This document shows, piece after piece, positions 4,083 to 24,741 of a DNA stretch of 64,000 nt. The position numbers and the translations under genes are program-made. The stretch comes from Streptomyces sp. 1-11. Its GTDB lineage: Bacteria > Actinomycetota > Actinomycetes > Streptomycetales > Streptomycetaceae. The notes under the pieces are model-generated. The model saw only the letters and a list, made by a program, of their open reading frames with translations. It was not told the DNA's origin and made no database searches. How positions within the stretch are numbered: the first letter of the stretch is position 1; each line of letters opens with the position of its first letter. The stretch lies in NCBI RefSeq assembly GCF_007176755.1, contig NZ_BJTV01000004.1, positions 434,001 through 498,000 on the forward strand, given 5' to 3'.

Positions 4083-4117
4083 AGCGGGCAGCCGGCCGGG
4101 ATGGCCGGAACGGGGCG

Positions 4118-4159
4118 GTCAGTCACGTGTCAGCGCCGGGTCAGATTCCGCTGTCAGGC
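4118..4159 (+). promoter_or_regulatory. SARP-type direct repeats upstream of the azoxy operon
   Basis: GTCAG begins at 4118, 4129 and 4140, giving three repeats in exact 11-bp phase, and again at 4153, which is 13 bp further on. The set lies between the divergent ACP and aldehyde dehydrogenase genes and reads towards the plus-strand operon. The same motif and spacing recur before other genes of this cluster, which supports control by the SARP at 22296. Confidence 0.65.
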
Positions 4160-4205
4160 TCGCATTGCTTCAAGAAATCCACACGCCATATCCGAAAGGC
4201 TGAAG

Positions 4206-5837
4206 ATGCTTCGCGAAGCCACGCAGGAGGAGAGTGCTGAGGCACCTTCCGGATTGAAGAGTTACGACCTCTACATCGCGGGCAAGGACGTGGCCGGCGA
4301 CGGCTGGGTCTACACCGTCAGCGGGCGCTCCCTGCTGGAGGACGTTTTCACGAGCGTCAGCCTGAAGCGCTCCCTCGAACAGGACCCTGAGTCCGAGGCG
4401 GCCAAGCACCCCTACGTCGTGGGGCGCTGCGCGATCGCGGACGACTCCGCGATCGACCTGGCCTCCCAGGCGGCCGCCGCGGCCGCCCCTGACTGGGCGG
4501 CCGTTCCGCTGGAGCGGCGGATGCAGCTCGGCACCCGCTTCCGCGAGGAACTGATCAAGCACCAGGACGAGTTCCTGCGGATGCTGGTCGCCGAGTCCCA
4601 CCCCGTGAAGCTCGCCCGGTGGGAGCTGAGCTGCCTGCTGCAGATCTACGCCCCGGGCTCCCTGCGCTGGTATCTGAAGCAGATGCGGGTGGAGAAGGAG
4701 TACAACGGCCGCAAGCTGATCCTGCACCGCCAGCCGGACGGCGTCGTCGCCTTCAACCCGCCGCAGAACGCACCGCTGCCGAGCGCCGCCCTGTGCGTGC
4801 TGGCGCTGATGGCGGGCAACGCCGTGGTGGTGCGCGCGCCGCGCTCGATCGCGCTGTCGACCATGTGGTTGCTCCGGGACATCGTCGCCCCGCTGCTGGA
4901 GGAGATCGACGCGCCGGCCGGTGTGCTGAACGCGGTGTGCTCCAACCCCAAGCAGACCATGGACCGCTGGATCGCCGACCCGCTGATCGACGACATCTTC
5001 TACATCGGCGGCAGCCAGGAGGGCCTGCGCTTCGAGCAGAGCTGCGTGGCGCACGGCAAGAAGCCGATCCTCGAACTCGCCGGCAACGACGGCATCGTGG
5101 TCTGGAAGGACGCCGACGTGAAGTGGGCGGCCGAGGCCATCACCGAGTCGTTCTACGGCTCCGGGCAGATCTGCATGGTGCCCAACTACGTCCTGGTCCA
5201 CCCGGAGATCGCCGAGACGCTGATCGCCGAGGTGAAGGAGCAGGTCAAGGGCATCAGGCCGGGCCTGCCCGAGGAGGAGGACGTGCTGCTGTCGCCGGTC
5301 AGGCGCAGCGAGCGCTTCTTCCGGCTGCTGCGCCAGGCGCTGGACAACGGCGCCGAGCTGGTCACCGGCGGCAACCGCACCGAGGTCGACGGCACGGTGT
5401 CGGAGACGGGCGTCTTCCTGCAGCCGACGGTGGTGCGGGTGGACGGCCTGGACCGGGCCCGGACGTACGACGTGGTCCGCGAGGAGACGTTCTTCCCGCT
5501 GATCCCGATCGTGGTGCCCGAGCGGGACAACGACGACGCGCTGCTGGAGGCCTTCCTGCAGTTCGTCAACAGCAACGACTACGGGCTGCGCAACTCCCTG
5601 TGGTCGCGCTCGGACCGCATCATCGAGACCTTCGTGCGCCGGGTGGTCAACGGCGGTCTGCTGAAGGTCAACGACTCCCACATCGGCTTCCTGCCATACC
5701 TCCCGAGCCACGGCGGCACCGGCCGCACCGGCGGCGCCTTCGGCGAGGCCAACTACCCGATGCTCAAGACCTCCCACATCCAGGGAGTCAGCATCGCCCG
5801 CGACGTGAGCCCGTACGACGCGGTCTTCGGCGCCTGA
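4206..5837 (+). CDS. Aldehyde dehydrogenase superfamily protein, 543 aa
   Basis: NAD(P)-dependent aldehyde dehydrogenase fold with catalytic Cys323 in GQICMV and Glu290 in LELAGND, spaced as in classical family members. Because Glu is kept, it may oxidise aldehydes. Because the next enzymes need an aldehyde for transamination, it might instead interconvert an acyl thioester and an aldehyde; the sequence does not decide. ATG 4206 is chosen over 4101 because GAAAGGC sits about six bases upstream. First gene of the long operon, 35 bp before the N-hydroxylase gene. Confidence 0.85.
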   Translation: MLREATQEESAEAPSGLKSYDLYIAGKDVAGDGWVYTVSGRSLLEDVFTSVSLKRSLEQDPESEAAKHPYVVGRCAIADDSAIDLASQAAAAAAPDWAAVPLERRMQLGTRFREELIKHQDEFLRMLVAESHPVKLARWELSCLLQIYAPGSLRWYLKQMRVEKEYNGRKLILHRQPDGVVAFNPPQNAPLPSAALCVLALMAGNAVVVRAPRSIALSTMWLLRDIVAPLLEEIDAPAGVLNAVCSNPKQTMDRWIADPLIDDIFYIGGSQEGLRFEQSCVAHGKKPILELAGNDGIVVWKDADVKWAAEAITESFYGSGQICMVPNYVLVHPEIAETLIAEVKEQVKGIRPGLPEEEDVLLSPVRRSERFFRLLRQALDNGAELVTGGNRTEVDGTVSETGVFLQPTVVRVDGLDRARTYDVVREETFFPLIPIVVPERDNDDALLEAFLQFVNSNDYGLRNSLWSRSDRIIETFVRRVVNGGLLKVNDSHIGFLPYLPSHGGTGRTGGAFGEANYPMLKTSHIQGVSIARDVSPYDAVFGA

Positions 5838-5872
5838 CCGTCTTCGCATCCGACGTCTTCCGGAGGTTTCCC

Positions 5873-7015
5873 GTGCGTTCCCTCGATGCTGCCCGGACCG
5901 TGTGCGAGCGGTTCCATCCCGGACTGCTCAAGGAGCTGGAGCAGATCCCGTACGCCGAGCGGGAGCAGCCCGGCAGCCCGGTGATCGACCTGTTCCGCAT
6001 CCACGGCGGTGTGGGCCTGCTCATACCCGAGAGCTACGGCGGCCACGGCGCCGCCCCGCTGGAGGCGCTGCGGGTGCAGCTCGCGCTCGGCGCGCTGTCC
6101 CCGTCGCTGGTCGCCGCCGTCTCCATGCACCACTTCACCGCCGCGATGCTGTACTCGCTGGCGGTCAAGGACGGCCGGCTCACCGGCGCGCAGACCGAAC
6201 TGCTGCACCGGATCGTCCCCGACCAGCAGGTGATGGCCTCCGGCTGGGCCGAGGGCCGCACCGCGCAGAACATCCTCAAGCCGGCCGTGACCGCGCGGCC
6301 CGTCGAGGGCGGCTTCCTGCTGTCCGGCTCCAAGAAGCCGTGCAGCCTGGCCCGTTCGATGAGCCTGCTCACCGCGTCCATCGCCATCCACGGCGAGGAC
6401 GGGGGCGAGCCGGAGCTGGCGCTCGCGCTGGTGCCGGCCGACGCGCCGGGGCTGTCCGTGCACGCGTTCTGGGGCAACGACCTGCTGGCCGGCGCGGAGA
6501 GCGACGAGGTGCGCCTGGAGGACGTGTTCGTCCCCGCGGACATGGTCGTCCGGGCCGGCGCCGACGACCCGACCCGCCTCGACGACCTGCAGTCGGCCGG
6601 TTTCGTCTGGTTCGAGATGCTGATCTCCGCCGGGTACGCGGGCGCTGCCGCCGCCCTGGTGGAGCAGGTGCTGGAGCGGCGGCGGGGCAGCGCCGGCGAC
6701 CGGGCCGCGCTCGCCGTGGACATGGAGGCGGCCCTGTCGCTGCTGGAGGGCGTGGCCCGCGGCACCGGCCAGGAGCCCGGCGACGAGGAGTCGGTGGCCC
6801 GGGTGCTGGTCGCCCGGTACGCCGTGCAGAACGCGCTGCCGGACATCGTGGCGCGGGCGCTGGAGCTGCTCGGCGGCCTGGACTTCATCGTGAACCCGGC
6901 GAGCGCCCAGGTGGCCGCGGCGACCCGCGCCCTCGCCTTCCACCCGCCGTCCCGGCTCGCCGCCGCGGAGCCGCTGCTCGCGTACTTCGACGGGGGACCG
7001 CTGGTCCTGGCGTAG
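5873..7015 (+). CDS. Acyl-CoA-dehydrogenase-fold flavin amine N-hydroxylase, VlmH-like, 380 aa
   Basis: Flavoprotein of the acyl-CoA dehydrogenase superfamily, with the N-terminal helical part, a central beta domain and a C-terminal helical bundle. In the valanimycin pathway an enzyme of this fold (VlmH) is a two-component monooxygenase that turns isobutylamine into the hydroxylamine using FADH2 from the reductase VlmR. A reductase gene of the right type lies in the same operon at 9475. GTG 5873 is supported by GGAGG six bases upstream. The substrate is inferred to be a long-chain amine produced by the aminotransferase next door. A true acyl-CoA dehydrogenase cannot be excluded by sequence reading alone. 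Confidence 0.75.
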   Translation: MRSLDAARTVCERFHPGLLKELEQIPYAEREQPGSPVIDLFRIHGGVGLLIPESYGGHGAAPLEALRVQLALGALSPSLVAAVSMHHFTAAMLYSLAVKDGRLTGAQTELLHRIVPDQQVMASGWAEGRTAQNILKPAVTARPVEGGFLLSGSKKPCSLARSMSLLTASIAIHGEDGGEPELALALVPADAPGLSVHAFWGNDLLAGAESDEVRLEDVFVPADMVVRAGADDPTRLDDLQSAGFVWFEMLISAGYAGAAAALVEQVLERRRGSAGDRAALAVDMEAALSLLEGVARGTGQEPGDEESVARVLVARYAVQNALPDIVARALELLGGLDFIVNPASAQVAAATRALAFHPPSRLAAAEPLLAYFDGGPLVLA

Positions 7016-7037: not shown

Positions 7038-7133
7038 GGGCGGCCGCGGATCCCTGCGGCACGATCGCGCGGCACCCGGCCGCGGCACCCCACCGACGTT
7101 GTGAACCACCCACACCCTTGGAGTGAGCGACAC

Positions 7134-8438
7134 GTGACCGTCATCCAGGACGCCCCGGCGCCGGCGCCGGCCTCCGCCGCCGACGAAGAGGCGGACATCC
7201 TCAACCTCTACCGGGCCCACCTCAGCAAGGGCCGCGCCACGCTCGCCGAGCTGTTCGGCAGCCACATGGAGACGGCGTCCGAGGGCGCCTGGCTCACTAC
7301 CAGCGACGGCGAGCGCTTCCTGAACGCCGGCGGCTACGGCGTGTTCATCATGGGCGCCCGCCACCCGATCGTCATGGAGGAGGTGGAGCGCCAGCTGCGC
7401 ACCCACCCCACCGCGACCCGCATCCTGCTGGAGCCGACGGTGGCCCGCGCCGCCGAGTCCCTGGTCTCCGTGATGCCGCCCGGCCTCGACCGCGTGCACT
7501 TCGCGCTGTCCGGCGCCGAGGCGGTGGAGACGGGCCTGAAGCTGGCCCGCGCGAACGGGTTCAAGCGGACGGTCTCGATGCGCGGCGGCTACCACGGCAA
7601 GACCCTGGGCGCCCTGTCGGCGACCGCCAAGGACGTCTACCAGGCGCCGTTCCGCCCGCTCGTCCCCGACTTCCTGCACCTGCCGTTCGGCGACGCCGAC
7701 GCGCTGGAGGAGGAGCTGCGGGCCCATCCCGGCGAGGTCTGCGTGATCCTCGAGCCGGTGCAGGGCGAGGGCGGGGTCATCATCCCGCCGAAGGGCTACC
7801 TCAAGCGGGTCGAGGAGCTGGTCCGGGAGTACGAGGGCTTCCTCATCCTCGACGAGGTGCAGTCCGGCTTCGGACGCCTCGGCGAGTGGTGGGGCGCGGA
7901 CGTCGAGGGCGTCGTCCCCGACGTCCTGCTCACCGGCAAGGCGCTCGGCGGCGGGGTGATGCCGGTGTCGGCGGCCGTCGCCACCCGCAAGGCGTTCCGC
8001 CCCTTCGACAAGGACCCCTACGTCCACACCGCCACCTTCTCCGGCCAGCCGGTGCTGATGGCGGCGGTGCAGGGCGCGATCCGGGCGGTCAAGGAGGAGC
8101 GCCTGGTCACCCGCGCCATGGACCTCGGCGCCAGGCTGCTGCCGCGGATCGCGGAGGTCGCCCACCGCAACATCCCCGAGCTGGTCGTGGACGTGCGCGG
8201 CCGGGGCCTGCTCATCGGCGTGGAGCTCGTCGAGGCCGGACTGGCCGGCGAGCTGCTGATCGAGCTGTTCAACCACGGCGTGGTCGCCAACCACTCCATG
8301 AACGGCAGCTCGGTGGTGCGGTTCACCCCGCCCGCCGTGCTGGACGACACCGACGTGGACTTCCTCGTCAACTCCTTCGACCTGGCCACCCGCGACCTGA
8401 TCAAGGGCGCGGCCACAATGCCGGAAGGCGGTAACTGA
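7134..8438 (+). CDS. Class III PLP-dependent aminotransferase, 434 aa
   Basis: Fold-type I, class III (omega/ornithine-type) aminotransferase. The PLP lysine is Lys269 in LLTGKALGGG, and the upstream glycine-rich cofactor loop SGAEAVETG is clear. Enzymes of this class typically transfer an amino group to an aldehyde carbon, which fits making an alkylamine from a fatty or polyketide aldehyde before N-hydroxylation. GTG 7134 is preferred to the upstream GTG 7101 because a GGAG lies before it. The next gene starts two bases after its stop, so translation is probably coupled. Confidence 0.88.
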   Translation: MTVIQDAPAPAPASAADEEADILNLYRAHLSKGRATLAELFGSHMETASEGAWLTTSDGERFLNAGGYGVFIMGARHPIVMEEVERQLRTHPTATRILLEPTVARAAESLVSVMPPGLDRVHFALSGAEAVETGLKLARANGFKRTVSMRGGYHGKTLGALSATAKDVYQAPFRPLVPDFLHLPFGDADALEEELRAHPGEVCVILEPVQGEGGVIIPPKGYLKRVEELVREYEGFLILDEVQSGFGRLGEWWGADVEGVVPDVLLTGKALGGGVMPVSAAVATRKAFRPFDKDPYVHTATFSGQPVLMAAVQGAIRAVKEERLVTRAMDLGARLLPRIAEVAHRNIPELVVDVRGRGLLIGVELVEAGLAGELLIELFNHGVVANHSMNGSSVVRFTPPAVLDDTDVDFLVNSFDLATRDLIKGAATMPEGGN

Positions 8439-8944: not shown

Positions 8945-9478
8945 ATGGACCAGGCGAACCCCTTCGAGACACCACGCACGTACTCGCTGCACCGCGCCGA
9001 GTACCTGGTGGGCCTCGCCGTCACCACCGGACTGATCGTCTACCACTTCGGCGACATCCGCTGGCTGCCGGCGATCGGACTGTTCCTCTACATCGACCTG
9101 ATCGGCTACATCCCCGGCGCCATCGCGTTCAAGAAAAGCGGGGGCCGGCCGATCCACAAGGCCTACTACGTCCTCTACAACGTCATGCACAGCCTCATCA
9201 CGCAGGGCGTGGTGGCCGCGCTGTGGTGCTGGCTGGTCAAGCCGGAGTGGGCGCTGCTGGTACTGCCGTTCCACCTGTTCGGCGACCGCGGCCTGTTCGG
9301 CAACTTCATGAAGTCCTTCGCGCTGCCCTTCGAGCCGGTGCGCCAGCAGGGCTACCTGAGGCTGCTGGACGACCTGGGCCTGCCCCACCCCAAGCCGGTC
9401 GGGCACGCCATGGACCCGGAGCCGGTCGGCCACGTCCCGGCGCGGACGGCCGTCCGGGAGACGGAGGCCGTGGGATGA
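8945..9478 (+). CDS. Small integral membrane protein, VlmO candidate, 177 aa
   Basis: Hydrophobic protein with about four membrane segments in the first 130 residues and a charged C-terminal tail. Histidines and acidic residues cluster at IHKAYYVLYNVMHS and FHLFGDRG, which would suit an active site at the membrane. The valanimycin cluster has a membrane protein, VlmO, that I recall being implicated in N-N bond formation from the O-seryl hydroxylamine. The operon context matches, but I cannot align the two here. SD GAGGAG lies before ATG 8945, and the stop overlaps the next start by four bases. Confidence 0.6.
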   Translation: MDQANPFETPRTYSLHRAEYLVGLAVTTGLIVYHFGDIRWLPAIGLFLYIDLIGYIPGAIAFKKSGGRPIHKAYYVLYNVMHSLITQGVVAALWCWLVKPEWALLVLPFHLFGDRGLFGNFMKSFALPFEPVRQQGYLRLLDDLGLPHPKPVGHAMDPEPVGHVPARTAVRETEAVG

Positions 9479-10026
9479 CCACCGCGACCGATGTACGCGC
9501 CGCCCGGCCGGTCCGCCAGGACCCGGCCGAGCGCCGCCGGGCGCTGTACCACCTGGCGTCCCCGGTGTCGGTGCTGACCACCGGTCCCGAGGACCGGATG
9601 CACGGCACCACCGCGAGCACGGTCACCCTCGTCTCGCGCTCACCGCTGCTGGTGGGCGTGGTGCTGCGGGCGGGCTCGTCGTTCGCCCGGCTGGCCGCCG
9701 CCGAGGGCCGGTTCGCGATCAACGTGCTCGGCGGCGACCAGGCCGACGTGGCCCGGCGGTTCGCGCACAGCGGCCGTCCGGACGGCGACGCGGCCTTCGC
9801 GGGCCTGGCCTGGACGGCGGACCGGTACGCGCACGCCCCGCTGATCGCGGGCGCGCTCGCGCACTACGTCTGCCGGTTCCACTCCGCACACGCCGCGGGC
9901 GACAGCGAGCTGCTGCTCGGCCATGTCGTACGCGCCACGGCCGACCCGGGTCTGCCGCTGTTCAGCTACGCCGGCGGGCTGTACGCCGGCTCCCTGCGCC
10001 CGGCGAAGGAGGCCGCCGCATCATGA
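9475..10026 (+). CDS. Flavin reductase, VlmR-like, 183 aa
   Basis: Flavin reductase-like domain of the HpaC/NmoB split-barrel family, recognisable from the N-terminal SPVSVLTT, the TASTVTLVSRSPLLVGV strand pair and the later FAINVL segment. It would supply reduced flavin to the N-hydroxylase at 5873, as VlmR does for VlmH. ATG 9475 overlaps the previous stop as ATGA, and its own stop overlaps the di-iron protein start in the same way, indicating tight coupling. Confidence 0.85.
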   Translation: MTTATDVRAARPVRQDPAERRRALYHLASPVSVLTTGPEDRMHGTTASTVTLVSRSPLLVGVVLRAGSSFARLAAAEGRFAINVLGGDQADVARRFAHSGRPDGDAAFAGLAWTADRYAHAPLIAGALAHYVCRFHSAHAAGDSELLLGHVVRATADPGLPLFSYAGGLYAGSLRPAKEAAAS

Positions 10027-11003
10027 CCGCACCCGTTGCCCCCGAGGCGGACTGGGACAAGGCCCCCGGTCTGCTCGACGGCGCGAAGGAGCTCACCCTC
10101 GGCCCCGAGGAGTGCGACCTCGCCTACTGGATCACCTCGGTGGCCCAGGGAACCCTGCGCGACCGCGGGGCGACCGGCCACCACGAGAACGCGATCACGC
10201 CCGACTTCCTGAAGGCGCCCGGCCCGCTGCGCGAGGCGCTGGTGCTGGAGTTCGGCTTCCGCGCGCTGGCGGAGGAGCTGGCCACCCGGCTGCTCGGCCA
10301 CTACGTGTCGATCGCGCCCGGCATCCCCGAGATGGAGTTCTACGCCACCCAGCTGATCGACGAGGCCCGGCACGCCCGGGTCTTCCGGCAGCACCTGGTG
10401 GACCTGGGCGTGCCGGCGGGCACCCTGCTCAAGGACATCGACGACATGGCCCGGGACTACCGCAAGCGGGTCCTGGACCCGGTGGTGGACTTCACCCTGG
10501 ACATCGTGCGCGACAAGGCCGACTTCCCCGGCGGCGTCGCGGTGTTCGCCATCATCATCGAGGGTGTGCTCGCCCCGGCCGCCGAGCTGAGCGAGCGCAA
10601 GTGGACCCCGCTGTCCCCGGCGACCGGCGAGATCTCGCGGGGCACCGCGATCGACGAGATCCGCCACCTCACCGTGGCCAGCACCATCCTGCGCGACCAC
10701 GTGATCGCGCACCCGGAGTACAAGCCGCGGCTGCTGGAGATCCTGCGCTCGGGCGTGAAGCTGTGGGACGAGATCCCGGACCGGGAGTTCGTCATCCACC
10801 GCGAGGAGCTGTTCCAGCAGGGCATGTTCGAGCACGCCGACAGAATCGGCGACTACGAGGTGTGGCCGGGCGTGCGGTTGCTCGACACCACCGCCGAGCA
10901 GCGCTACGACATGGCCGAGCAGTGGACCGACGAGATGGCCGAGGTCCGCATGGAGTACATGGGCCTCCCGGTGGAGGTCCTCGCCTCGGAGGCCGGCGCA
11001 TGA
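10023..11003 (+). CDS. Ferritin-like di-iron oxidase, VlmB-like, 326 aa
   Basis: Helical ferritin-like protein with two ExxH metal motifs, Glu114-His117 (EARH) and Glu212-His215 (EIRH), plus further acidic residues on helices (for example in ALVLEFGFRALAEE and IIIEGVL) able to complete a di-iron site. Such enzymes oxidise nitrogen or carbon using O2. In valanimycin the related protein VlmB is tied to late azoxy formation, so oxidation of a hydrazine-level intermediate to the azoxy group is the likely role. The assignment rests on fold plus context. It overlaps both neighbours by four bases. Confidence 0.78.
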   Translation: MTAPVAPEADWDKAPGLLDGAKELTLGPEECDLAYWITSVAQGTLRDRGATGHHENAITPDFLKAPGPLREALVLEFGFRALAEELATRLLGHYVSIAPGIPEMEFYATQLIDEARHARVFRQHLVDLGVPAGTLLKDIDDMARDYRKRVLDPVVDFTLDIVRDKADFPGGVAVFAIIIEGVLAPAAELSERKWTPLSPATGEISRGTAIDEIRHLTVASTILRDHVIAHPEYKPRLLEILRSGVKLWDEIPDREFVIHREELFQQGMFEHADRIGDYEVWPGVRLLDTTAEQRYDMAEQWTDEMAEVRMEYMGLPVEVLASEAGA

Positions 11004-12007: not shown

Positions 12008-12075
12008 CCGACCGTCAGTAACTCATACCGAATTCAGCGGTACGCGGGGTGCGTACGCCTTCGAAAGGAACCGAC

Positions 12076-12306
12076 ATGCTGGAGCAGCTCAAGGAAATCC
12101 TGTCCAACAAGCTCAAGGTGTCGCCCGAGTCGATCACTCCGGAGGCCTCCCGGGAGGACATCGAGCTGGACTCGCTCGCCGTGGTGGAGCTGTCGCTGCT
12201 GCTGAAGTCCGAGCTGGACCTGGACATCAGCGACGACGACCTCCTGGAGGCCGAGACCGTGGCCGACATGGTCCGGCTGATGGAGGAGCGGAGCGCGACG
12301 GTCTGA
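12076..12306 (+). CDS. Acyl carrier protein, 76 aa
   Basis: Standard small ACP with attachment Ser33 in DIELDSLAVVEL. A strong AAAGGA lies seven bases before ATG 12076. It sits between KASIII and KASII and overlaps the latter as TGATG, so it is the likely carrier for chains made by these two enzymes. It is the second free-standing ACP of the cluster. Confidence 0.92.
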   Translation: MLEQLKEILSNKLKVSPESITPEASREDIELDSLAVVELSLLLKSELDLDISDDDLLEAETVADMVRLMEERSATV

Positions 12307-13626: not shown

Positions 13627-15105
13627 ATGTCCTCCAGTGGTTCCCCGCCCCCGTCCGGCCGGCTCGGTACCGGGCACATCCTCTTCCTGATCGTCGCCGC
13701 CGCCGCCCCGCTGTCCGCCATGGTCGGCACCGTCCCGCTCGCGTTCGCCTTCGGTGACGGGGCCGGTGTGCCGGCCGCGTTCCTGTTCGCCGGGGTCACC
13801 CTGCTGTGCTTCTCGGTGGGGTACGCGGTCAGCGCCCGCCGCACCGGCGGCTCCGGCGGCTTCTACGCCTCCGTCGCCGACGGACTCGGCCGCCCGCCCG
13901 CGGTCGCCGCCGGCTACGTCGCCCTGCTCTCCTACAACTGCGCCACCATCGGCCTGGCGGGCGCCCTCGGCTACTTCACCCAGCTGGTGCTCGCCGCACA
14001 CGGGCTGACCGTGTCGTGGCAGTGGTGCGCGGCCGTCGGGCTGGTGCTGATGGCGGTGCTCGGCTACCGGGAGATCGCGCTCAGCGCCCGGGTGCTGGCC
14101 CTGCTGATGCTCGGCGAGATCGGGGTGCTGGCCGCGCTGGACGTCGCGATCCTCGTCCGGCACGGACTGCACGCGCTGCCCACCGCGTCCTTCTCCCCGC
14201 ACACCGCCGCCGGACACGGCGTCGGCGTGTCGCTGATGTTCGCGTTCGTCTCCTTCATCGGCTTCGAGTCGGCCGCGCTCTACGGCAAGGAGGCGAAGGA
14301 CCCGCGGCGCAGCGTGCCGCGCGCCACCTATGTGGCCGTCGTGCTGATCGCCGGCTTCTACGCGCTCACCAGCTGGCTGGCGGTCGGCGCGGTCGGCAGC
14401 GACCGGGTGCGCGAGGTCGCGGGCAAGCAGATGGGCGACCTGTTCTTCGTCCTCGGTGACGACTTCCTCGGCAAGGCGGGCAGCACCGGGCTGCAGATCC
14501 TGCTGTGCACCAGCCTGTTCGCGGCGACGCTGGCCCTGCACAGCGCCGCCGGACGGTACGCCCAGGTGCTCGCCGCGGACGGCCTGCTGCCGGGCGCGCT
14601 GGCCGCGGAGCACTCCCGGTACCGCTCCCCGCACCGGGCCAGCCTCGCGCAGAGCGCGCTGACCGCGGTGGTCGTGGCCGGCTTCGCCGTCGCCGGGCTC
14701 GACCCGTACGCCGACCTGACGACCAGCATGCTCGGCCTCGGCACCCTGGGCATCGTCGCCCTGCAGGCGCTGGCCGCGCTGTCCGTGCTCGGGCTGCGGC
14801 TGCGCACCGGCGGCGGGCACTGGTGGCGGGAGACCGTCGCCCCGCTGCTGGGATTCGCCGGCCTGGCCGCCTCGGTGTGGCTGGTGGTCGGCAACTTCGA
14901 CATGCTCACCGGCTCCCCCTCCGCGGTGATCGCCGCGCTGCCCTGGCTGCTGCCGCTGGTCGCCGCGGGCGGCCTGCTGTACGCAGCCCGGCTGCGTTCG
15001 GCGCACCCGGCGCGCTACCGCCTGCTCGGCACCCGGCACACCGCCGCCCCCGCCCCGGCCCCCTCCCCCGTCCTGTCAGGAGACCGTCATGCACGATCCC
15101 AGTGA
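13627..15105 (+). CDS. APC-family amino-acid permease, 492 aa
   Basis: Twelve-segment-type transporter of the amino acid-polyamine-organocation superfamily, with the helix-1 small-residue motif AAAAPLSAMVG and the conserved FIGFESAALYGKEAKDPRR stretch after helix 6. It is the penultimate gene of the azoxy operon and overlaps the seryl-tRNA synthetase gene by 17 bp. Import of serine or another precursor is a reasonable guess, but the substrate cannot be read from sequence. Confidence 0.85.
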   Translation: MSSSGSPPPSGRLGTGHILFLIVAAAAPLSAMVGTVPLAFAFGDGAGVPAAFLFAGVTLLCFSVGYAVSARRTGGSGGFYASVADGLGRPPAVAAGYVALLSYNCATIGLAGALGYFTQLVLAAHGLTVSWQWCAAVGLVLMAVLGYREIALSARVLALLMLGEIGVLAALDVAILVRHGLHALPTASFSPHTAAGHGVGVSLMFAFVSFIGFESAALYGKEAKDPRRSVPRATYVAVVLIAGFYALTSWLAVGAVGSDRVREVAGKQMGDLFFVLGDDFLGKAGSTGLQILLCTSLFAATLALHSAAGRYAQVLAADGLLPGALAAEHSRYRSPHRASLAQSALTAVVVAGFAVAGLDPYADLTTSMLGLGTLGIVALQALAALSVLGLRLRTGGGHWWRETVAPLLGFAGLAASVWLVVGNFDMLTGSPSAVIAALPWLLPLVAAGGLLYAARLRSAHPARYRLLGTRHTAAPAPAPSPVLSGDRHARSQ

Positions 15106-16366
15106 GCTGATCGAGGCCGGCGAGGACGCCGTACGGCGCCTGGCCCGCCGCCGCCACGACCTCGACCTGGACGCCCTCACCGCCGCGCTGCGCGCCCGCT
15201 CGGCCGCGCAGTCGGAGGTGACCCGGCTGCGCACCGAGCTGAACCGCACCGCCAAGGCCCGCCGTTCGGGCCCGCCCACGGAAGCCGAGAAGGAGGCCGC
15301 CCGCGCGCTGCGGGCCGAGGTCCAGCGGGCCGAGGCCACCGCGCGTACCGCGGCCGCCGGGCTGACCGAGCTGCTGCTCGGCATCCCCAACCTGCCCCTG
15401 GACGCCGTACCGGACGGCGACTCGGAGAAGGAGGCGGTGGAGGTGCGGCGCGGCGGTCCGGCGCCGCGTCCGGCGGCCGGCGCCCGGCACCACGCCGAGA
15501 TCGGCGAGGCGCTCGGCATCCTGGACTCCGCCGCGGCGGCCCGGCTGTCCGGCGCCCGGTTCGCCGTCGCGCACGGCGCCGGCGCGCGCCTGGAGCGGGC
15601 CCTCGGCGACTTCTTCCTCGACCTGCACACCGGCGAGCACGGCTACACCGAGCAGTCGGTGCCGTTCCTGGTCAACCGGGACACCATGACCGGCACCGGG
15701 CAGCTCCCCAAGTTCGAGGAGGACCTGTTCCGCACGAAGGTCGCGGACCGGGAGCTGTTCCTGATCCCGACCGCCGAGGTGCCGCTGACCAACCTGGTGG
15801 CCGGGCAGCTCCTGGACGCGCGCACGCTGCCGTACGCCTTCACCGCCCGCACCCCCTGCTTCCGCGCGGAGGCCGGGGCGTACGGCCGGGACACCCGGGG
15901 CGTGCTGCGGCTGCACCAGTTCGAGAAGGTGGAGCTGGTGCGGATCTGCGCGCCGGAACAGGCGCAGGAGCAGCTGGAGCTGATGGTGGGGCACGCCGAG
16001 GAGTGCCTGCGCCGGCTGGAGCTGTCCTTCCGCACGGTCCTGCTGCCGGCGGGCGACATGGGCTTCTCGGCCCGGATGACGTACGACATCGAGGTGTGGC
16101 TGCCCGGCGGCGGCGCGTACCGGGAGATCTCCTCGGTGTCGGACTGCGGCACCTTCCAGGCCCGCCGCGCCGACATCCGGGTGAAGCGCGCGGACGGCCG
16201 CAAGACGCCGGCGGCCACGCTGAACGGCTCGGCGCTGCCGATCGGGCGGACGGTGGCCGCGCTGCTGGAGCAGGGCGTGCGCGACGACGGCTCCGTGGTG
16301 CTGCCCGAGGCGCTGGTGCCGTACACCGGCTTCCGGCGGATCCTGCCGGGCGGCGCCACCGAGTAG
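15089..16366 (+). CDS. Seryl-tRNA synthetase, cluster paralogue (VlmL-like), 425 aa
   Basis: Class II synthetase with the N-terminal coiled-coil arm (about residues 30-100) that recognises the long variable arm of tRNA-Ser, the TAEVPLTN (TxE) serine-binding loop, motif 2 in FRAEAGAYGRDTRG and motif 3 in LNGSALPIGRT. Embedded in a secondary-metabolite operon, it parallels VlmL of valanimycin, which feeds Ser-tRNA to the transferase VlmA. Its likely partners here are the transferase at 20741 and the tRNA-like gene at 21923. SerRS does not read the anticodon, so that tRNA could still be charged. Confidence 0.92.
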   Translation: MHDPSELIEAGEDAVRRLARRRHDLDLDALTAALRARSAAQSEVTRLRTELNRTAKARRSGPPTEAEKEAARALRAEVQRAEATARTAAAGLTELLLGIPNLPLDAVPDGDSEKEAVEVRRGGPAPRPAAGARHHAEIGEALGILDSAAAARLSGARFAVAHGAGARLERALGDFFLDLHTGEHGYTEQSVPFLVNRDTMTGTGQLPKFEEDLFRTKVADRELFLIPTAEVPLTNLVAGQLLDARTLPYAFTARTPCFRAEAGAYGRDTRGVLRLHQFEKVELVRICAPEQAQEQLELMVGHAEECLRRLELSFRTVLLPAGDMGFSARMTYDIEVWLPGGGAYREISSVSDCGTFQARRADIRVKRADGRKTPAATLNGSALPIGRTVAALLEQGVRDDGSVVLPEALVPYTGFRRILPGGATE

Positions 16367-16455: not shown

Positions 16456-17223
16456 TCAGGCGCCCATCATGTGCACCCCGCCGTCCACGTGCACGATCTC
16501 GCCCGTGGTCCGCGGGAAGAAGTCCGACAGCAGCGCGACCACCCCGCGTGCGGCCGGCTCGGGGTCAGTGAGGTCCCAGCCCGCCGGGGCGCGGTGGGTG
16601 GTCCACACGTCGGCCAGTTCCGCGAAGCCCGGGATGGACTTGGCGGCCATGGAGCGCAGCGGCCCGGCGGCCACGAGGTTGCAGCGGACGCCGCGGCCCC
16701 CGAGGTCCCGGGCCAGGTAGCGGCTGGTGGACTCGAGGGCGGCCTTGGCGACGCCCATCCAGTCGTAGTGCGGCCAGGCGACGGCCGCGTCGAAGGTGAG
16801 CCCGACGACCGAGCCGCCGCGCCGTTCGAGCAGCGGCAGGCAGGCCGTGGTCAGCGACTTCAGGGAGTACGCCGAGACCTGCACGGCCGTCGACACGTCA
16901 TCCCAGGTGCCGTCGAGGAAGGAGAAGGCGCCCTGGGGGCCGTAGGCGATGGAGTGCACGACGCCGTCGAGGGAGTCGGTGTGCTCGCCGATCCGCTCGG
17001 CGAGGCTGTCCAGGTGTCCCTGGTCGGTGACGTCCAGCTCGATGACGGGTGCGGGCTTGGGGAGCCTGCTCGCGAACCGCTCGATCAGGGAGAGCCTGCC
17101 GAAGCCGGTCAGCAGGACCTCGGCGCCCTCCTCCTGCGCGATACGGGCCACGTGGAAGGCGATGGAGGCGTCCGTGACGACGCCGGTGACCAGGATCCGC
17201 TTGCCGGCGAGGATGCCGCTCAT
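16456..17223 (-). CDS. Enoyl-ACP reductase, FabI/InhA type, 255 aa
   Basis: Short-chain-dehydrogenase-fold enoyl reductase. The NAD-binding segment VTGVVTDASIAFHVA and the downstream LTGF match the InhA-like branch, and the active-site Tyr and Lys are spaced seven residues apart in YDWMGVAK. It would complete the reductive cycle for the cluster's fatty-acid-type enzymes, or be a resistant copy. Start ATG overlaps the ferredoxin stop by four bases. Last gene of the minus operon. Confidence 0.92.
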   Translation of the reverse strand: MSGILAGKRILVTGVVTDASIAFHVARIAQEEGAEVLLTGFGRLSLIERFASRLPKPAPVIELDVTDQGHLDSLAERIGEHTDSLDGVVHSIAYGPQGAFSFLDGTWDDVSTAVQVSAYSLKSLTTACLPLLERRGGSVVGLTFDAAVAWPHYDWMGVAKAALESTSRYLARDLGGRGVRCNLVAAGPLRSMAAKSIPGFAELADVWTTHRAPAGWDLTDPEPAARGVVALLSDFFPRTTGEIVHVDGGVHMMGA

Positions 17224-17549
17224 GCCACCGACACCCCCTTCGGGAGCGCGCCGACCAGCGGCGAGTCGTGGTCCTGGGGGCCGAGGGCGGCGCCCCCGCC
17301 GGGCGAGCCGATACCGGCGAAGAAGGCGGCGTTGGACGCCGCGTGGTCCTCGCCCCACTCCTCGGGCAGGTCGTCCTGGAAGTAGATGGCGTCGACCGGG
17401 CAGACCGGTTCGCAGGCTCCGCAGTCGACGCATTCCTCGGGATGGATGTACAGGGCGCGGCGGCCCTCGTAGATGCAGTCCACGGGGCACTCCTCGACGC
17501 AGGAGCGGTCCTTGACGTCGACGCAGGGCAGTCCGATGACGTAGGCCAT
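17220..17549 (-). CDS. Seven-iron ferredoxin, 109 aa
   Basis: FdxA-type ferredoxin with two cysteine clusters: an N-terminal CVEECPVDC and a second CVDCGACEPVCP, typical of one 3Fe-4S and one 4Fe-4S centre. GAGGAG precedes ATG 17549. It is in the operon with the membrane desaturase, and could pass electrons to that enzyme or to the di-iron oxidase at 10023. Confidence 0.92.
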   Translation of the reverse strand: MAYVIGLPCVDVKDRSCVEECPVDCIYEGRRALYIHPEECVDCGACEPVCPVDAIYFQDDLPEEWGEDHAASNAAFFAGIGSPGGGAALGPQDHDSPLVGALPKGVSVA

Positions 17550-19123: not shown

Positions 19124-20236
19124 TCAGGCCGCTTCCATCGCCCGGCGCCGGATCTGCTCCTCCACGTCGCCGCGCCGCACCGGTGCGCTGACCTCGTGCA
19201 GGAAGGAGGCGACCTCGCGGTACGAGGCCCAGAACCCGACCTCGTGGTAGGGCACTCCGCGCTCGGCGCAGTAGGCCATGGTCAGCTCCCGGGCGCGCCC
19301 CAGGTTCTTCTGCGGCATCGCCGGGAACAGGTGGTGCTCGACCTGGTAGTTGAGCCCGCCGTAGAGGAAGTCGACCAGCCAGTTGGGCCGGATGTTGCGG
19401 GAGGTGAGGACCTGGCGCTCCAGCCAGTCCAGGGTCTCCGCCTCGCCGTCGCGCACCTGCATGCCCTTGTGGTTCGGGGCGAAGATCATTCCGAAGTAGA
19501 CGCCCAGGGCGGCGTGCTGGACCACGATGAAGGCGACCGCGAGCGCCGGGGACAGGACGGTGAAGGCGAGACCGAGGTAGACGGCGGTGCGCAGCACGAT
19601 CAGGAAGGTCTCCAGCGCGGGCCGCTTGGTCTTGCCCTGGACGATGGACAGGACGGCCGTCCTGAGCATCTTGAAGCCCTCGAGCACGAGCAGCACGAAG
19701 AACAGCACGCTCTGGTAGCGCACGACGAACTTCTGGGTGCCCGTGCGGGTCGGGTACTGCTTGATGTCGAAGATGGCGGTGCGCCGGCCGATGTCCGGGT
19801 CCATGTCCAGGTGGTTGGGGTTGCTGTGGTGCCGGTTGTGGTGGTTGACCCACCAGCCGTAGCTGACCCCGTTGACCAGGTTGGCGTGGACGTATCCGAC
19901 CGCGGAGGCGGCCTTCTTGCTGCGGAACATCGCCTTGTGGCCGGCGTCGTGCCACATGAACGCCGACTGGCCGCCGCACAGGCCCATCCACACGGCCGTG
20001 AGGAGCTGCCACCAGGAGTCGCCCAGCTCGAAGAAGGCGGCGAACCCGATCAGCAGCAGGACGGTGTTGAGGGCCAGCCTGCCCACGTAGTACCGGGGGT
20101 CGAGGTCCAGCAGCCCCTCGGCCTTGACCCGTTTGAGCAGCTCGGCGAAGGTCGCCGAGGCACCGGTGCGCTGTCCGGCGCCGGCGCCTCCACCGGCGGC
20201 CAGGGCCGCGGCTTCTTGTATGTGCGGACGCTGCAT
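19124..20236 (-). CDS. Membrane fatty-acid desaturase, 370 aa
   Basis: Integral-membrane di-iron desaturase with the three histidine boxes HDAGH, HHNRHH and QVEHH and paired hydrophobic segments between them. It would introduce a double bond into an acyl chain or the lipid-like amine/azoxy intermediate; alkenyl azoxy natural products are known, so this is a good candidate for that feature. No cytochrome b5 domain is fused, so electrons probably come from the ferredoxin in the same operon. SARP-type repeats lie about 255 bp upstream. Confidence 0.9.
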   Translation of the reverse strand: MQRPHIQEAAALAAGGGAGAGQRTGASATFAELLKRVKAEGLLDLDPRYYVGRLALNTVLLLIGFAAFFELGDSWWQLLTAVWMGLCGGQSAFMWHDAGHKAMFRSKKAASAVGYVHANLVNGVSYGWWVNHHNRHHSNPNHLDMDPDIGRRTAIFDIKQYPTRTGTQKFVVRYQSVLFFVLLVLEGFKMLRTAVLSIVQGKTKRPALETFLIVLRTAVYLGLAFTVLSPALAVAFIVVQHAALGVYFGMIFAPNHKGMQVRDGEAETLDWLERQVLTSRNIRPNWLVDFLYGGLNYQVEHHLFPAMPQKNLGRARELTMAYCAERGVPYHEVGFWASYREVASFLHEVSAPVRRGDVEEQIRRRAMEAA

Positions 20237-20491: not shown

Positions 20492-20517
20492 CTGATGTGG
20501 CACTGATACCGGTCTGA
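20492..20517 (-). promoter_or_regulatory. SARP-type repeats upstream of the desaturase operon
   Basis: On the minus strand TCAG-containing heptamers start every 11 bp (TCAG cores at 20517-20514, 20506-20503 and 20495-20492). Orientation and spacing match the sets at 4067, 4118, 21841 and 23099. The desaturase start is about 255 bp downstream, so a long leader or an extra promoter is possible. Confidence 0.6.
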
Positions 20518-20558
20518 CCGGGTGTGCGCCGGCGTCCGCCGGCGCGCCCGGCGCCGGC

Positions 20559-20740: not shown

Positions 20741-21748
20741 TCAGAAGGCGTTGCAGGCGCGGAAGACGTGCGCGAAGCCGGGCAGCGAGGCCTGCGGCCC
20801 GTCGAAGGCGACGTACTCCGGGATCAGCAGGTCCGGGGCCCACTTCTGCTTGTACGAGAGCTGGGTCTGCGCCGGGTAGAGGGCGGCGCCCTCGGCCCAC
20901 AGGGCGTGCATCAGCCACTGGAACGCCGGGCTGTGGCCGTCGAGTTCGTGGCTCGCGTCCAGGCCGGTGAACGGCGTGAAGCCGAAGTGCAGCCACTCGA
21001 CGCCCTCGGCCCTGAACACCTCGATGGCGTGCGCGTTGATGGCCTCCATCAGGCCCGGGGATCCCTCGGGGATCCGGCGGCTGAGGTCGTGCATCCAGCC
21101 CGCCCGGCTGCCGTACACCGGCGAGTACGAGATGTACGCGACCGGTGCGCCGTCGATGGTGCCGACGAACAGCCGGCGGTGCGCCTGGGCCTCGCCGCCG
21201 ATCTGGCCGACGAGGAACTCCAGTTGCTGGGCGCCGCCCTTGGAGCCGAGCCAGGCCTGGTCGATGGTGGCGATGGCGTCGGCCACGTCGCCGGCGTCGA
21301 CCTCCTGGATCTGCAGGCCGTTGCGCAGCGCGCGGGAGATCTTGTTGCGCAGCTGCATGAACTTGGTGCCGCGCAGGGTGAACTCGCCGAGGCTCACCGC
21401 CCAGGACGCGCCGACCTGGTTGACGGTGAAGCCGAGCTCGGCGTAGCGCTCGGCGTCGGCGCGCTGGAGCTGGATGCCGACGAGCCGCAGGCCCTCGTCG
21501 CGGACGTGGCCGCGGAAGGCGTCGAGCAGGGTGCCGTAGTCCTCCCCGGCGGCGAAGGGGCCGCCGAGCTGGACGGCCCAGCTGCCGGTGCGGCGGTACA
21601 CGATGACACCGTCCGCGCCCGGGACGGTGAACGTACTGTTTCCGCTGTTGAGGGCGAGGAACGCACTCGGGTTCTCACTTGCCGTGTGCGCGCGGACGGC
21701 GTCCAGAACAGGGTTGTCCGTGACGGTCTCGGTGGTGGTGGCGGTCAT
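20741..21748 (-). CDS. Seryl-tRNA-dependent hydroxylamine seryltransferase, VlmA-like, 335 aa
   Basis: Protein of the DUF2156/GNAT-related aminoacyl-tRNA transferase group, related to the catalytic domain of lysylphosphatidylglycerol synthases. Visible hallmarks are the basic FMQLRNKISRALRNG segment, the LHFGFTPFTG stretch and the C-terminal YKQKWAP. In valanimycin, VlmA moves serine from Ser-tRNA onto isobutylhydroxylamine to give an O-seryl ester; a cluster with SerRS, N-hydroxylase and this protein points to the same chemistry on a longer amine. ATG 21748 is chosen over 21778 because GAAAGGGG lies just before it. Confidence 0.85.
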   Translation of the reverse strand: MTATTTETVTDNPVLDAVRAHTASENPSAFLALNSGNSTFTVPGADGVIVYRRTGSWAVQLGGPFAAGEDYGTLLDAFRGHVRDEGLRLVGIQLQRADAERYAELGFTVNQVGASWAVSLGEFTLRGTKFMQLRNKISRALRNGLQIQEVDAGDVADAIATIDQAWLGSKGGAQQLEFLVGQIGGEAQAHRRLFVGTIDGAPVAYISYSPVYGSRAGWMHDLSRRIPEGSPGLMEAINAHAIEVFRAEGVEWLHFGFTPFTGLDASHELDGHSPAFQWLMHALWAEGAALYPAQTQLSYKQKWAPDLLIPEYVAFDGPQASLPGFAHVFRACNAF

Positions 21749-21840
21749 TCCCGTACCCCTTTCGGGAGCGTTTTCCATCGAAAGGAGTACAGCACCGAGA
21801 GGACGTCCGAGAAAAGGGCCGAAAGGAATTCATTGCCTGC

Positions 21841-21869
21841 GTCAGAGGCGTGTCAGCATTCCGTCAGCC
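21841..21869 (+). promoter_or_regulatory. SARP-type repeats upstream of the tRNA-like gene
   Basis: GTCAG starts at 21841, 21852 and 21863: three repeats in perfect 11-bp phase, reading towards the tRNA-like gene that begins at 21923. A -10-like CAATGT at about 21878 would place the RNA start roughly 30 bases upstream of the mature 5' end. It might also influence the divergent VlmA-like gene. Confidence 0.65.
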
Positions 21870-21922
21870 CAGGGTGCCAATGTTGTTCCCGTGAACGGCA
21901 CGGGAAACCGGGCCGGAAACAC

Positions 21923-22016
21923 GGAGAGGTGCCCGGAGTGGCTGATCGGGGACCTGGAGCACGCCTCGAGGTCGGGCCGGCGACGGCCTGCGCAGGTTCG
22001 AATCCTGCCCTCTCCG
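21923..22016 (+). tRNA. tRNA-Ser-like gene with aberrant anticodon arm
   Basis: Acceptor stem: 21923-21929 pairs fully with 22009-22015, discriminator G22016, CCA not encoded. D arm: CCCGG and TCGGG around a loop with the conserved A14, GG and A21 positions. Variable arm: 21974-21978 pairs with 21985-21989 around six bases, the long arm that SerRS recognises. T arm: GCAGG-TTCGAAT-CCTGC, perfect. Between the D and variable arms are 23 bases that do not form a 5-bp stem with a 7-base loop. Instead GACCT (21951-21955) pairs with AGGTC (21969-21973) across 13 bases containing a second GAG/CTC pairing, so no anticodon is presented. The inner CACGCCTCGA resembles the 5' half of a tRNA-Ser(CGA) anticodon arm. 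Likely chargeable by SerRS but unfit for decoding. Confidence 0.75.
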
Positions 22017-22295: not shown

Positions 22296-23081
22296 ATGCT
22301 GAGGTTCTCCGTTCTCGGCGCCCTGCAGATACTCACCGCCGAAGGCCCGGCGGACATCTCCGGTGATCTGCAGCGCACGCTGGTGCAGACGCTGCTGGTC
22401 AGCGAGGGCCAGCCGGTGACCGGTGAGGGGCTGGCCGAGGAGATGTGGGGGGACGCCGTCCCCGACAACCAGGCCAACGCCCTCCAGGCCCACGTCAGCC
22501 GGCTGCGCCGCAGGCTGCGCGAACTGGAGCCGGACCGCCCGTCCTCCCGGCTGACGATGCACCCCTCCGGCTACCGGCTGAGCGTCGGCGAGGGCGAACT
22601 GGACGCGGCCGAGTTCATCAGGGCCGTACGCCTGGCCGAGTCGGCCACCGCGGCCGACGCGGCGCGCACCGCGCGGCTGCTCGCCGACGCGCTCGGCATG
22701 TGGCGCGGCCCGGTCTTCGGCGGGTTCACCGGCGGAACCCTGTGCCAGCTCGCGGGCGCCCGCTACGAGGAGTACCGGATGCGCGCCATGGAACTGCGCT
22801 TCGACGCCGAACTGCGGCTCGGCCGCCATGCCGCGGTCCTCGCCGAACTGGCCGAGGCGCACACCAACCACCCCCTGCGGGAGCGGTTCTGCGAGCAGCT
22901 CATGGTCGCCCTGTACGGCTCCGGGCGGCAGGCGGACGCGCTCGACGTCTTCCACCGGATGCGCCGTCACCTCGACGACGAACTCGGCATCCAGCCCTCC
23001 CCCGCCCTGCGCCGCGTCGAGCACGCGATCCTCTCCCACGACCCCGCCCTGACCGGCGGCGCCCGCCTCCAGCCGGTCTGA
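22296..23081 (+). CDS. SARP-family pathway activator, 261 aa
   Basis: Streptomyces antibiotic regulatory protein: N-terminal OmpR-like winged helix (about residues 1-95, with ANALQAHVSRLRRRLRE as the recognition region) followed by the bacterial transcriptional activation domain (about 100-250). These proteins bind direct repeats spaced 11 or 22 bp just upstream of -10 boxes, and five such repeat sets are found in this cluster. A strong AAAGGGGGG precedes ATG 22296. Valanimycin also has a SARP (VlmI). No ATPase or TPR extension is present. Confidence 0.92.
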   Translation: MLRFSVLGALQILTAEGPADISGDLQRTLVQTLLVSEGQPVTGEGLAEEMWGDAVPDNQANALQAHVSRLRRRLRELEPDRPSSRLTMHPSGYRLSVGEGELDAAEFIRAVRLAESATAADAARTARLLADALGMWRGPVFGGFTGGTLCQLAGARYEEYRMRAMELRFDAELRLGRHAAVLAELAEAHTNHPLRERFCEQLMVALYGSGRQADALDVFHRMRRHLDDELGIQPSPALRRVEHAILSHDPALTGGARLQPV

Positions 23082-23098: not shown

Positions 23099-23127
23099 GT
23101 AAGCGGCCCGTCAGTCCCCGGTCAGCC
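23099..23127 (+). promoter_or_regulatory. SARP-type repeats upstream of the carboxylase genes
   Basis: Heptamers begin at 23099 (GTAAGCG, one mismatch), 23110 (GTCAGTC) and 23121 (GTCAGCC), exactly 11 bp apart and followed by GCATTGC. The last repeat is about 75 bp before the carboxyltransferase start. This links extender-unit supply to the same regulator as the rest of the cluster. Confidence 0.65.
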
Positions 23128-23196
23128 CGCATTGCCACGCTCGACGGGCGAGTGGAATCACGGAACCACCACGCCCCTACCCACGGAGGGGGAGAC

Positions 23197-24741
23197 ATGA
23201 GGTCCCAGGTCGAGGAACTGGCCGGCATACGCGAGCGCGTGCTCGCCGGCCCGAGCGAGAAGGCGACCGCCGCCCAGAAGGCCAAGGGCAAGCTCACCGT
23301 GCGCGAGCGGATCGGCCTGCTGCTCGACGAGGGCTCCTTCCAGGAGGTGGAGCCGCTGCGCCGGCACCGGGCGAGCGGGTTCGGCCTGGAGGCCAAGAAG
23401 CCCTACACCGACGGCGTCGTCACCGGCTGGGGCACGGTGGAGGGCCGTACGGTCTTCGTCTACGCCCACGACTTCCGGATCTTCGGCGGCGCGCTGGGCG
23501 AGGCCCACGCCGCCAAGATCCACAAGATCATGGACATGGCCATCGCGGCCGGCGCGCCCCTGGTCTCCCTCAACGACGGCGCCGGCGCCCGCATCCAGGA
23601 GGGCGTCACCGCCCTCGCCGGATACGGCGGCATCTTCCAGCGCAACACCAAGGCCAGCGGTGTCATCCCGCAGATCTCCGTGATGCTCGGCCCCTGCGCG
23701 GGCGGCGCCGCCTACAGCCCGGCGCTCACCGACTTCGTCTTCATGGTCCGCGAGACCTCGCAGATGTTCATCACCGGCCCGGACGTCGTCAAGGCGGTCA
23801 CCGGCGAGGAGATCACCCAGAACGGGCTCGGCGGCGCCGACGTGCACGCCGAGACCTCCGGCGTCTGCCACTTCGCCTACGACGACGAGGAGACCTGCCT
23901 GGAGGAGGTGCGCTACCTGCTCTCCCTCCTGCCGCGCAACAACCGCGAGAACCCGCCCGCCGCGCCGTGCGACGATCCGGCCGGGCGGCGCTGCGAGAGC
24001 CTCGCCGACCTGGTGCCCGCCGACGGCAACCGCCCGTACGACATGACCAGGGTCATCGAGGAGCTCGTCGACGACGGCGAGTACCTGGAGGTGCACCAGC
24101 GCTGGGCGCGCAACATCATCTGCGCGCTGGCCCGGATGGACGGCCAGGTGGTCGGGATCGTGGCCAACCAGCCGCAGACCCTGGCGGGCGTGCTGGACAT
24201 CGAAGCGTCCGAGAAGGCCGCCCGCTTCGTGCAGATGTGCGACGCGTTCAGCATCCCGATCGTCACCCTGCTGGACGTACCCGGCTTCCTCCCCGGCGTC
24301 GACCAGGAGCACGGTGGAATCATCCGGCACGGCGCGAAGCTGCTGTACGCCTACTGCGACGCCACCGTGCCGAGGATCTCGCTGATCCTGCGCAAGGCCT
24401 ACGGAGGTGCCTACATCGTGATGGACTCCCAGTCGATCGGCGCCGACCTCACCTACGCCTGGCCCACCAACGAGATCGCCGTGATGGGCGCCGAGGGCGC
24501 GGCCAACGTCATCTTCCGCCGCCGGATCGCCGAGGCCGACGACCCCGAGGCGATGCGGGCGGAGCTGGTCAAGGAGTACAGGGCCGAGCTGATGCACCCC
24601 TACTACGCGGCCGAACGAGGCCTGGTCGACGACGTGATCGACCCCGCCGACACCCGCCGCGTCCTGATCGGCGCGCTGGCGATGCTGCGCACCAAACACG
24701 CCGAGCGCCCCGCCCGCAAGCACGGCAACCCGCCCCAGTGA
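23197..24741 (+). CDS. Acyl-CoA carboxylase beta subunit (carboxyltransferase), 514 aa
   Basis: Carboxyltransferase subunit of actinobacterial acyl-CoA carboxylases, moving CO2 from biotin to an acyl-CoA. Both oxyanion-hole regions are visible (GGALGEAHAAK; GPCAGGAAYSPALTDF early, and FLPGVDQEHGGIIRHGAKLLYAY late). The specificity position equivalent to PccB Asp422 is Ile407 in GGAYIVM, as in AccB-type enzymes that accept acetyl-CoA as well as propionyl-CoA; this suits a malonyl-using PKS. ATG 23197 follows GGAGGGGGA. No biotinylated alpha subunit gene is nearby, so a housekeeping one must serve. Confidence 0.92.
   Translation: MRSQVEELAGIRERVLAGPSEKATAAQKAKGKLTVRERIGLLLDEGSFQEVEPLRRHRASGFGLEAKKPYTDGVVTGWGTVEGRTVFVYAHDFRIFGGALGEAHAAKIHKIMDMAIAAGAPLVSLNDGAGARIQEGVTALAGYGGIFQRNTKASGVIPQISVMLGPCAGGAAYSPALTDFVFMVRETSQMFITGPDVVKAVTGEEITQNGLGGADVHAETSGVCHFAYDDEETCLEEVRYLLSLLPRNNRENPPAAPCDDPAGRRCESLADLVPADGNRPYDMTRVIEELVDDGEYLEVHQRWARNIICALARMDGQVVGIVANQPQTLAGVLDIEASEKAARFVQMCDAFSIPIVTLLDVPGFLPGVDQEHGGIIRHGAKLLYAYCDATVPRISLILRKAYGGAYIVMDSQSIGADLTYAWPTNEIAVMGAEGAANVIFRRRIAEADDPEAMRAELVKEYRAELMHPYYAAERGLVDDVIDPADTRRVLIGALAMLRTKHAERPARKHGNPPQ

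Follow-up and report, generated by a model that had tools for sequence, protein, structure and literature searches.

This locus raises the question of what a tRNA-Ser-like gene without a usable anticodon is doing inside an azoxy gene cluster, and whether its product is a tRNA dedicated to metabolism rather than to translation. It lies within the 64,000 nucleotides of Streptomyces sp. 1-11 DNA analysed here (the window), next to genes predicted from their homologies to include the hallmarks of aliphatic azoxy biosynthesis, with relatives of VlmA, VlmH, VlmO and VlmB occurring together. VlmA transfers the serine of seryl-tRNA to a hydroxylamine, and completion of the azoxy group falls to VlmO and VlmB (PMC11705231, PMC9379638, PMC12945691). 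The genes on which the argument turns are the following.

4101..5837, + strand, aldehyde dehydrogenase family gene (fatty aldehyde formation; PF00171, 4.9e-61)
5840..7015, + strand, VlmH-like N-hydroxylase of the acyl-CoA dehydrogenase type (homologue by nearly all VlmA loci examined)
7101..8438, + strand, class III aminotransferase (amine formation; PF00202, 2.7e-79)
8945..9478, + strand, VlmO-like membrane protein of the N-N bond forming family (weak match to DUF4260, PF14079, E 0.08)
10023..11003, + strand, VlmB-like diiron oxygenase (weak AurF match)
15089..16366, + strand, cluster seryl-tRNA synthetase (SerRS), VlmL-like (TIGR00414 serS, 402 bits)
20741..21778, - strand, VlmA-type seryl-tRNA:hydroxylamine transferase (LPG_synthase_C, 4.7e-67; VlmA tree)
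21923..22016, + strand, non-decoding tRNA-Ser-like RNA (94 nt, discriminator G73, CCA not encoded)
22296..23081, + strand, SARP regulator just downstream of the RNA (Trans_reg_C and BTAD domains; BTAD 7.8e-48)

The VlmO-like and VlmB-like proteins have weak Pfam matches, and their identification draws also on a constant position next to VlmA in other loci. Extra, duplicated fatty-acid genes are found at 11003-13526, 16456-17490 and 23152-24741 (KAS III, KAS II, a FabI-type reductase and a carboxyltransferase); they could serve either for chain supply or as resistant enzyme copies. A match to mir-H20 at 16401 was dismissed as chance.

The presence at 21923-22016 of a tRNA-Ser-like RNA with a hairpin in place of the anticodon arm is confirmed. 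Its parts are, in order:

21923..21929, + strand, 5´ strand of the acceptor stem, GGAGAGG (pairs with 22009-22015; invariant in 25 diverse sequences)
21932..21950, + strand, D arm, CCCG-GAGTGGCTGAT-CGGG (4 bp in 100% of cells; compensatory change at two pairs)
21951..21973, + strand, hairpin in place of the anticodon arm, GACCTGGAGCACGCCTCGAGGTC (23 nt)
21974..21989, + strand, long variable arm, the main serine identity feature (from the fold; changes on both sides in 4/5 pairs)
21992..22008, + strand, T arm, GCAGG-TTCGAAT-CCTGC (identical in 88/97 copies)

The RNA conforms to the class II tRNA-Ser cloverleaf, with a 7-bp acceptor stem, D and T arms and a long variable arm, and folds with a minimum free energy of -50.7 kcal/mol. 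The preliminary description had taken these four arms to be intact, which the fold, Rfam and ARAGORN bear out, G73 included. It had also proposed a search with tRNA models, and both programs find a tRNA-like gene here: the Rfam tRNA model (RF00005) gives 28.4 bits on the + strand, just short of its gathering score of 29, and ARAGORN assigns the label 'tRNA-Val(cac)', a meaningless anticodon. Our covariance model R1 scores the same RNA at 89.8 bits. The claim that a 23-nt replacement of the anticodon arm cannot present an anticodon stands, whereas the 13-nt loop on 5 bp drawn for it does not, as the hairpin folds into helices of 5 bp and 3 bp, separated by a G-G mismatch and closed by a 5-nt loop. 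The distance to the transferase gene, earlier put at 175 bp, is 144 bp, measured from the start of the RNA to the start of the gene at 21778.

This RNA is one member of a conserved, previously undescribed RNA family. By BLAST, relatives occur in most of 83 VlmA loci, usually 150-250 bp upstream of vlmA and commonly in tandem arrays of 2-5 copies, and the same altered arm, for which a search beside VlmA homologues had been proposed, recurs there. We gathered 97 distinct homologous RNAs, far beyond chance, and a near-identical tRNA body is seen at loci of Streptomyces, Actinokineospora, Salinispora, Sphaerisporangium and Rhodococcus. All copies have discriminator G73, G1-C72 and G2-C71, together with a long variable arm, and all aligned copies have the 7/5 acceptor/T branch. 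The acceptor and T stems are invariant in an alignment of 25 diverse sequences, and the T arm and the 3´ acceptor strand are identical in 88 of 97 copies, an invariance that is inflated because part of the collection came from a pattern demanding acceptor and T-arm sequence. The bias is limited, since a freer scan of VlmA loci and the covariance model gave near-identical arms.

The replacement arm behaves quite differently from this body. Among the relatives it is 14-35 nt long and has 70 distinct sequences, some capped by UUCG, GAAA or UUUU loops. A 5-bp/7-nt anticodon arm is found in none of the 97 distinct copies, as scored by a simple arm-finding script that left 13 cores unresolved; the 7-nt loop of one plasmid copy (L078) has neither U33 nor a purine at 37. 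In the 25 diverse sequences the outer stem of the hairpin has compensatory changes in 4/5 pairs. Since the arm covaries and yet takes no canonical form, it appears to be kept as a helix and not as a decoder. For want of a 5-bp/7-nt arm, U33 and an anticodon in any of the 97 copies, we do not file the family as a decoding tRNA-Ser.

The conservation of the body and the loss of the arm bear on two other readings. A tRNA that works in translation despite an unusual anticodon loop, perhaps as a suppressor or by recoding a gene of the cluster, would agree with the fact that ARAGORN reports anticodons, but these differ at random from one relative to the next, with Val, Cys, Ala, Ile, Leu and His among them. 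Together with the lack of a canonical arm this led us to reject a real decoding tRNA, and we give such a role next to no credence. Hardly more probable is a decaying tRNA pseudogene, such as the relic of an integrated element. A score below the Rfam threshold and the loss or remnant state of the vlmA-side copy in some relatives are what decay would produce, but the tRNA body is near-identical across five genera, the promoter is conserved and the copies are amplified in tandem. Given 97 distinct intact relatives, we reject both a pseudogene and a sequencing error. An error whose correction restored a normal arm had been named beforehand as a possible refutation; instead, independent genomes carry the same replacement.

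If the RNA belongs to the pathway, it should follow VlmA from genome to genome. A sample of 393 Streptomyces genomes comprised 80 with VlmA and 313 without. The RNA pattern was found in 39, every one of them among the 80, and in none of the 313 VlmA-free genomes; a reversed control pattern had no matches in the 393. The hypergeometric p for this co-occurrence is ~1e-31, a value that assumes independent genomes, which Streptomyces genomes are not. Covariance model R1, with which family members score 75-98 bits against ~50-54 bits for housekeeping tRNA-Tyr, finds the RNA in 10 further VlmA genomes that the pattern had missed, and in 80 VlmA-free control genomes its top score was <=56.5 bits. With these additions the VlmA tree requires 4 changes instead of 8, which fits one gain and three losses. 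No other tRNA-like gene was found near VlmA in 20 scanned loci of pattern-negative genomes.

Four VlmA entries from three lineages (L192, L193, L194 and L066) are nested among RNA-positives without a detectable RNA, so that VlmA seems able to work without it; such lineages presumably draw on ordinary aminoacyl-tRNA. Their VlmA may represent a reversion to this substrate or a switch of amino acid. Some absences can be artefacts of draft genomes, because assemblies break at RNA arrays: in L043, L044, L050 and L231 the contigs end inside or beside the array, as is expected of a dispersed, near-identical repeat.

In a phylum-wide sample the pattern occurred only in the genome studied here and in one other Streptomyces, which has VlmA, and in an order-wide sample the RNA was found in 24 of 246 genomes, all Streptomyces. 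Among 72,556 plasmids it was present on 12, all from Streptomyces; VlmA is encoded on 9 of the 12 as well. Near VlmA or in VlmA genomes it was further found in Actinokineospora, Salinispora, Rhodococcus and two Streptosporangiaceae.

A second link to the pathway is provided by the promoter. In SARP promoters the direct repeats are spaced by 11 bp and the 3´ one lies 8 bp from the -10 element (PMC10936776), and both spacings recur in the promoter of the RNA. The elements found in the window are:

4118..4144, + strand, SARP-type triple repeat where the aldehyde dehydrogenase gene region begins (0 mismatches; one of 8 genome sites)
20492..20518, - strand, SARP-type triple repeat before the desaturase-like gene at 19124-20236 (window and genome repeat scans)
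21841..21867, + strand, SARP-type operator of the RNA, made up of three GTCAG repeats at 11-bp intervals (0 mismatches; one of eight perfect genome sites)
21878..21883, + strand, probable -10 element CAATGT (8 bp past the last heptamer)
23099..23125, + strand, SARP-type triple repeat before the carboxyltransferase gene at 23152-24741 (1 mismatch)

Given the position of the repeat at 4118, the true start of the aldehyde dehydrogenase gene is probably downstream of it. Near-matches to the array number 5 in the window against 0.22 expected. Perfect TCAG triple repeats are rare, with only eight in the 7.85-Mb genome: five precede RNA copies, two precede cluster genes of the window and one lies ~10 kb before the window. 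The arrangement extends to the family, as 63 of 75 first copies are preceded by three (G)TCAG repeats spaced by exactly 11 bp and another 9 by two. No more than one repeat is seen before any of the 30 follow-on copies in tandem arrays, which would agree with co-transcription with the copy ahead. On the basis of their common triple-repeat arrays, the RNA genes and the cluster are predicted to form one regulon. The perfect repeat outside the window, at G000:C4:423578-423603, suggests that this putative regulon reaches beyond the window.

The copies next to vlmA are only part of the complement. The genome of Streptomyces sp. 1-11 holds ~10 copies of the RNA, 8 perfect and 2 slightly degenerate, and other genomes have up to 15 (13-15 in some). 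Copies elsewhere in the genome also accompany loci L033, L036, L034, L060, L069 and L072, and some close relatives have lost the vlmA-adjacent copy yet keep others. In two of these loci (L034 and L060) the lost copy has left a degenerate trace of its T arm and acceptor end, GCAAGTTCACATCTTGGCCTCTACG, upstream of vlmA, with many copies remaining elsewhere. The genes adjoining dispersed copies are unrelated to one another, and no special function is apparent among them. In the one dispersed copy compared, similarity is restricted to promoter and RNA, about 190-210 bp.

Such compact, multicopy dispersal (10 copies here, 13-15 elsewhere) among unrelated neighbours is what one would expect of a self-spreading, tRNA-derived repeat resembling a bacterial MITE or SINE, in which case the link with VlmA would be mere hitch-hiking; the restricted similarity of promoter plus RNA is also in keeping with it. 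A mobile repeat should, however, spread past the hosts of the pathway, and the RNA is absent from the VlmA-free genomes examined. Moreover, promoter and tRNA body are under selection and the stems have compensatory changes, which makes this origin improbable.

The synthetase of the cluster is a less faithful companion than VlmA. A SerRS at least 68% identical to that of the window is found in 24 of the 393 genomes, all RNA-positive. Among the VlmA genomes, 28 of the 39 with the pattern and 1 of the 41 lacking it encode a second SerRS of 58% identity or higher (p 1.5e-11; counted before the ten covariance-model additions). The other 11 RNA-positive Streptomyces genomes are without one, so the housekeeping SerRS can apparently serve the RNA. 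The suggestion that the cluster SerRS is its partner thus does not generalise, though the window itself has one, and a strict dependence on a dedicated SerRS is ruled out. From these distributions, a dedicated SerRS is common but apparently not needed for the RNA. Conversely, in 29 VlmA-free Streptomyces genomes without the RNA pattern there is a second SerRS with 58-62% identity to that of the window; here the enzyme may belong to another pathway or to resistance. Both sets of genomes show that the RNA tracks VlmA more tightly than SerRS.

Whichever enzyme is involved, the RNA should be chargeable. Serine identity resides mainly in the long variable arm and is independent of the anticodon (PMC9976931), and the identity set of G1-C72, G2-C71, G73 and long variable arm is present throughout the family. 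Kept features of SerRS recognition, and SARP-type control, would equally suit a regulatory or buffering RNA that binds SerRS or the sensors of uncharged tRNA, or that is charged to take up serine as a sink, thereby modulating translation or the stringent response during activity of the pathway and donating nothing to VlmA. Such a decoy, however, would have no need of an unvarying acceptor end. Its occurrence should also follow SerRS, whereas the RNA is tied to VlmA, being undetected by the pattern in the 29 genomes with a second SerRS and no VlmA and present in the 11 that lack the second enzyme. We consider a buffering role unlikely, if the least so of the alternatives discussed here.

The body of the RNA may further discourage its use in translation. 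The family has A51-U63, with G-C at pair 49-65, and 4/5 of the tRNA-Ser of the same genome have G51-C63; the A51-U63 pair may weaken binding to EF-Tu, as in the tRNA-Gly set of Staphylococcus aureus (PMC4052509), although the comparison is only suggestive. Two quite different tRNA-Ser(GCT) genes (L144 and L154) are present in this genome.

Taken together, co-occurrence with VlmA, a common SARP-type promoter, loss of the anticodon and retention of tRNA-Ser features give strong, if indirect, support to the proposal that the azoxy cluster has a tRNA dedicated to metabolism. Most probably, judging from comparative sequence data, the RNA is a non-decoding tRNA-Ser that has left translation and carries serine solely for the aliphatic azoxy pathway. 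The cluster SARP would bind the 11-bp-spaced repeats before the RNA genes, both the vlmA-side and the scattered copies, and turn them on together with the pathway genes. The transcript would be trimmed and receive CCA as a tRNA does. SerRS, reading the acceptor end, G73 and the long variable arm and not the anticodon, would then charge it with serine, the enzyme being that of the cluster where present and otherwise the housekeeping one, as the identity features and the co-occurrence suggest. The charged RNA should be unable to decode a codon because a mere hairpin replaces the anticodon arm, and VlmA, in keeping with its known chemistry, would transfer the RNA-borne serine to the alkylhydroxylamine. 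The pathway would thereby gain a serine pool of its own, enlarged by gene copies, and spare protein synthesis. The more far-reaching reading, which we regard as probable but hold with less assurance, is that of a tRNA class permanently out of the genetic code, in which an anticodon-free seryl carrier, SARP, SerRS and VlmA make up a closed amino-acid transfer channel of specialised metabolism, found in at least five actinobacterial families and with its promoter-plus-RNA cassettes amplified.

Chargeable tRNA-like molecules without an anticodon are known in the form of tmRNA. This is charged with alanine, is much longer and acts on the ribosome, whereas the RNA described here is a complete 94-nt cloverleaf with G73 and no reading frame, for which neither ARAGORN nor Rfam makes a tmRNA call. 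Serylated tRNAs with non-canonical cloverleaves are found among the allo-tRNAs and tRNA-Sec (PMC7609411), but these have an 8/4, 9/3 or 13-bp branch and keep the anticodon, in contrast to the 7/5 branch and replaced anticodon arm of the present RNA. A closer parallel may be offered by the non-proteinogenic tRNA-Gly isoacceptors of Staphylococcus aureus, which are set aside as donors for a non-ribosomal transferase in the synthesis of the peptidoglycan bridge and made less available to EF-Tu by changes in the body (PMC9976931, PMC4052509). In these, D and T elements are altered and loss of the anticodon arm has not been reported, whereas here the whole arm is replaced; the window RNA differs also in its SARP-type pathway control, its multiple, dispersed copies and its presumed place in specialised metabolism. 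Valanimycin biosynthesis uses the same pair of enzymes, the SerRS VlmL and VlmA, and the same serine-donor chemistry as the window cluster, but no dedicated tRNA has been reported for it. Searches of the open-access literature brought up no biosynthetic cluster with an anticodon-less tRNA. The family thus lies closest to the dedicated donor tRNAs, with a reasonable chance of meriting a separate class.

The mechanism by which Ser-tRNA is diverted from translation into valanimycin has been stated to be unknown (PMC4052509), as have the tRNA identity elements used by such enzymes (PMC9976931). The family offers a testable answer to the question of diversion, namely that the pathway makes its own, non-decoding tRNA. 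The RNA would serve as a marker for finding azoxy clusters, where annotators mislabel or miss such genes, and SerRS, tRNA and transferase would, if the proposal is true, constitute a ready orthogonal module for engineering. It would also mean that these actinobacteria possess a natural tRNA that has been freed from decoding.
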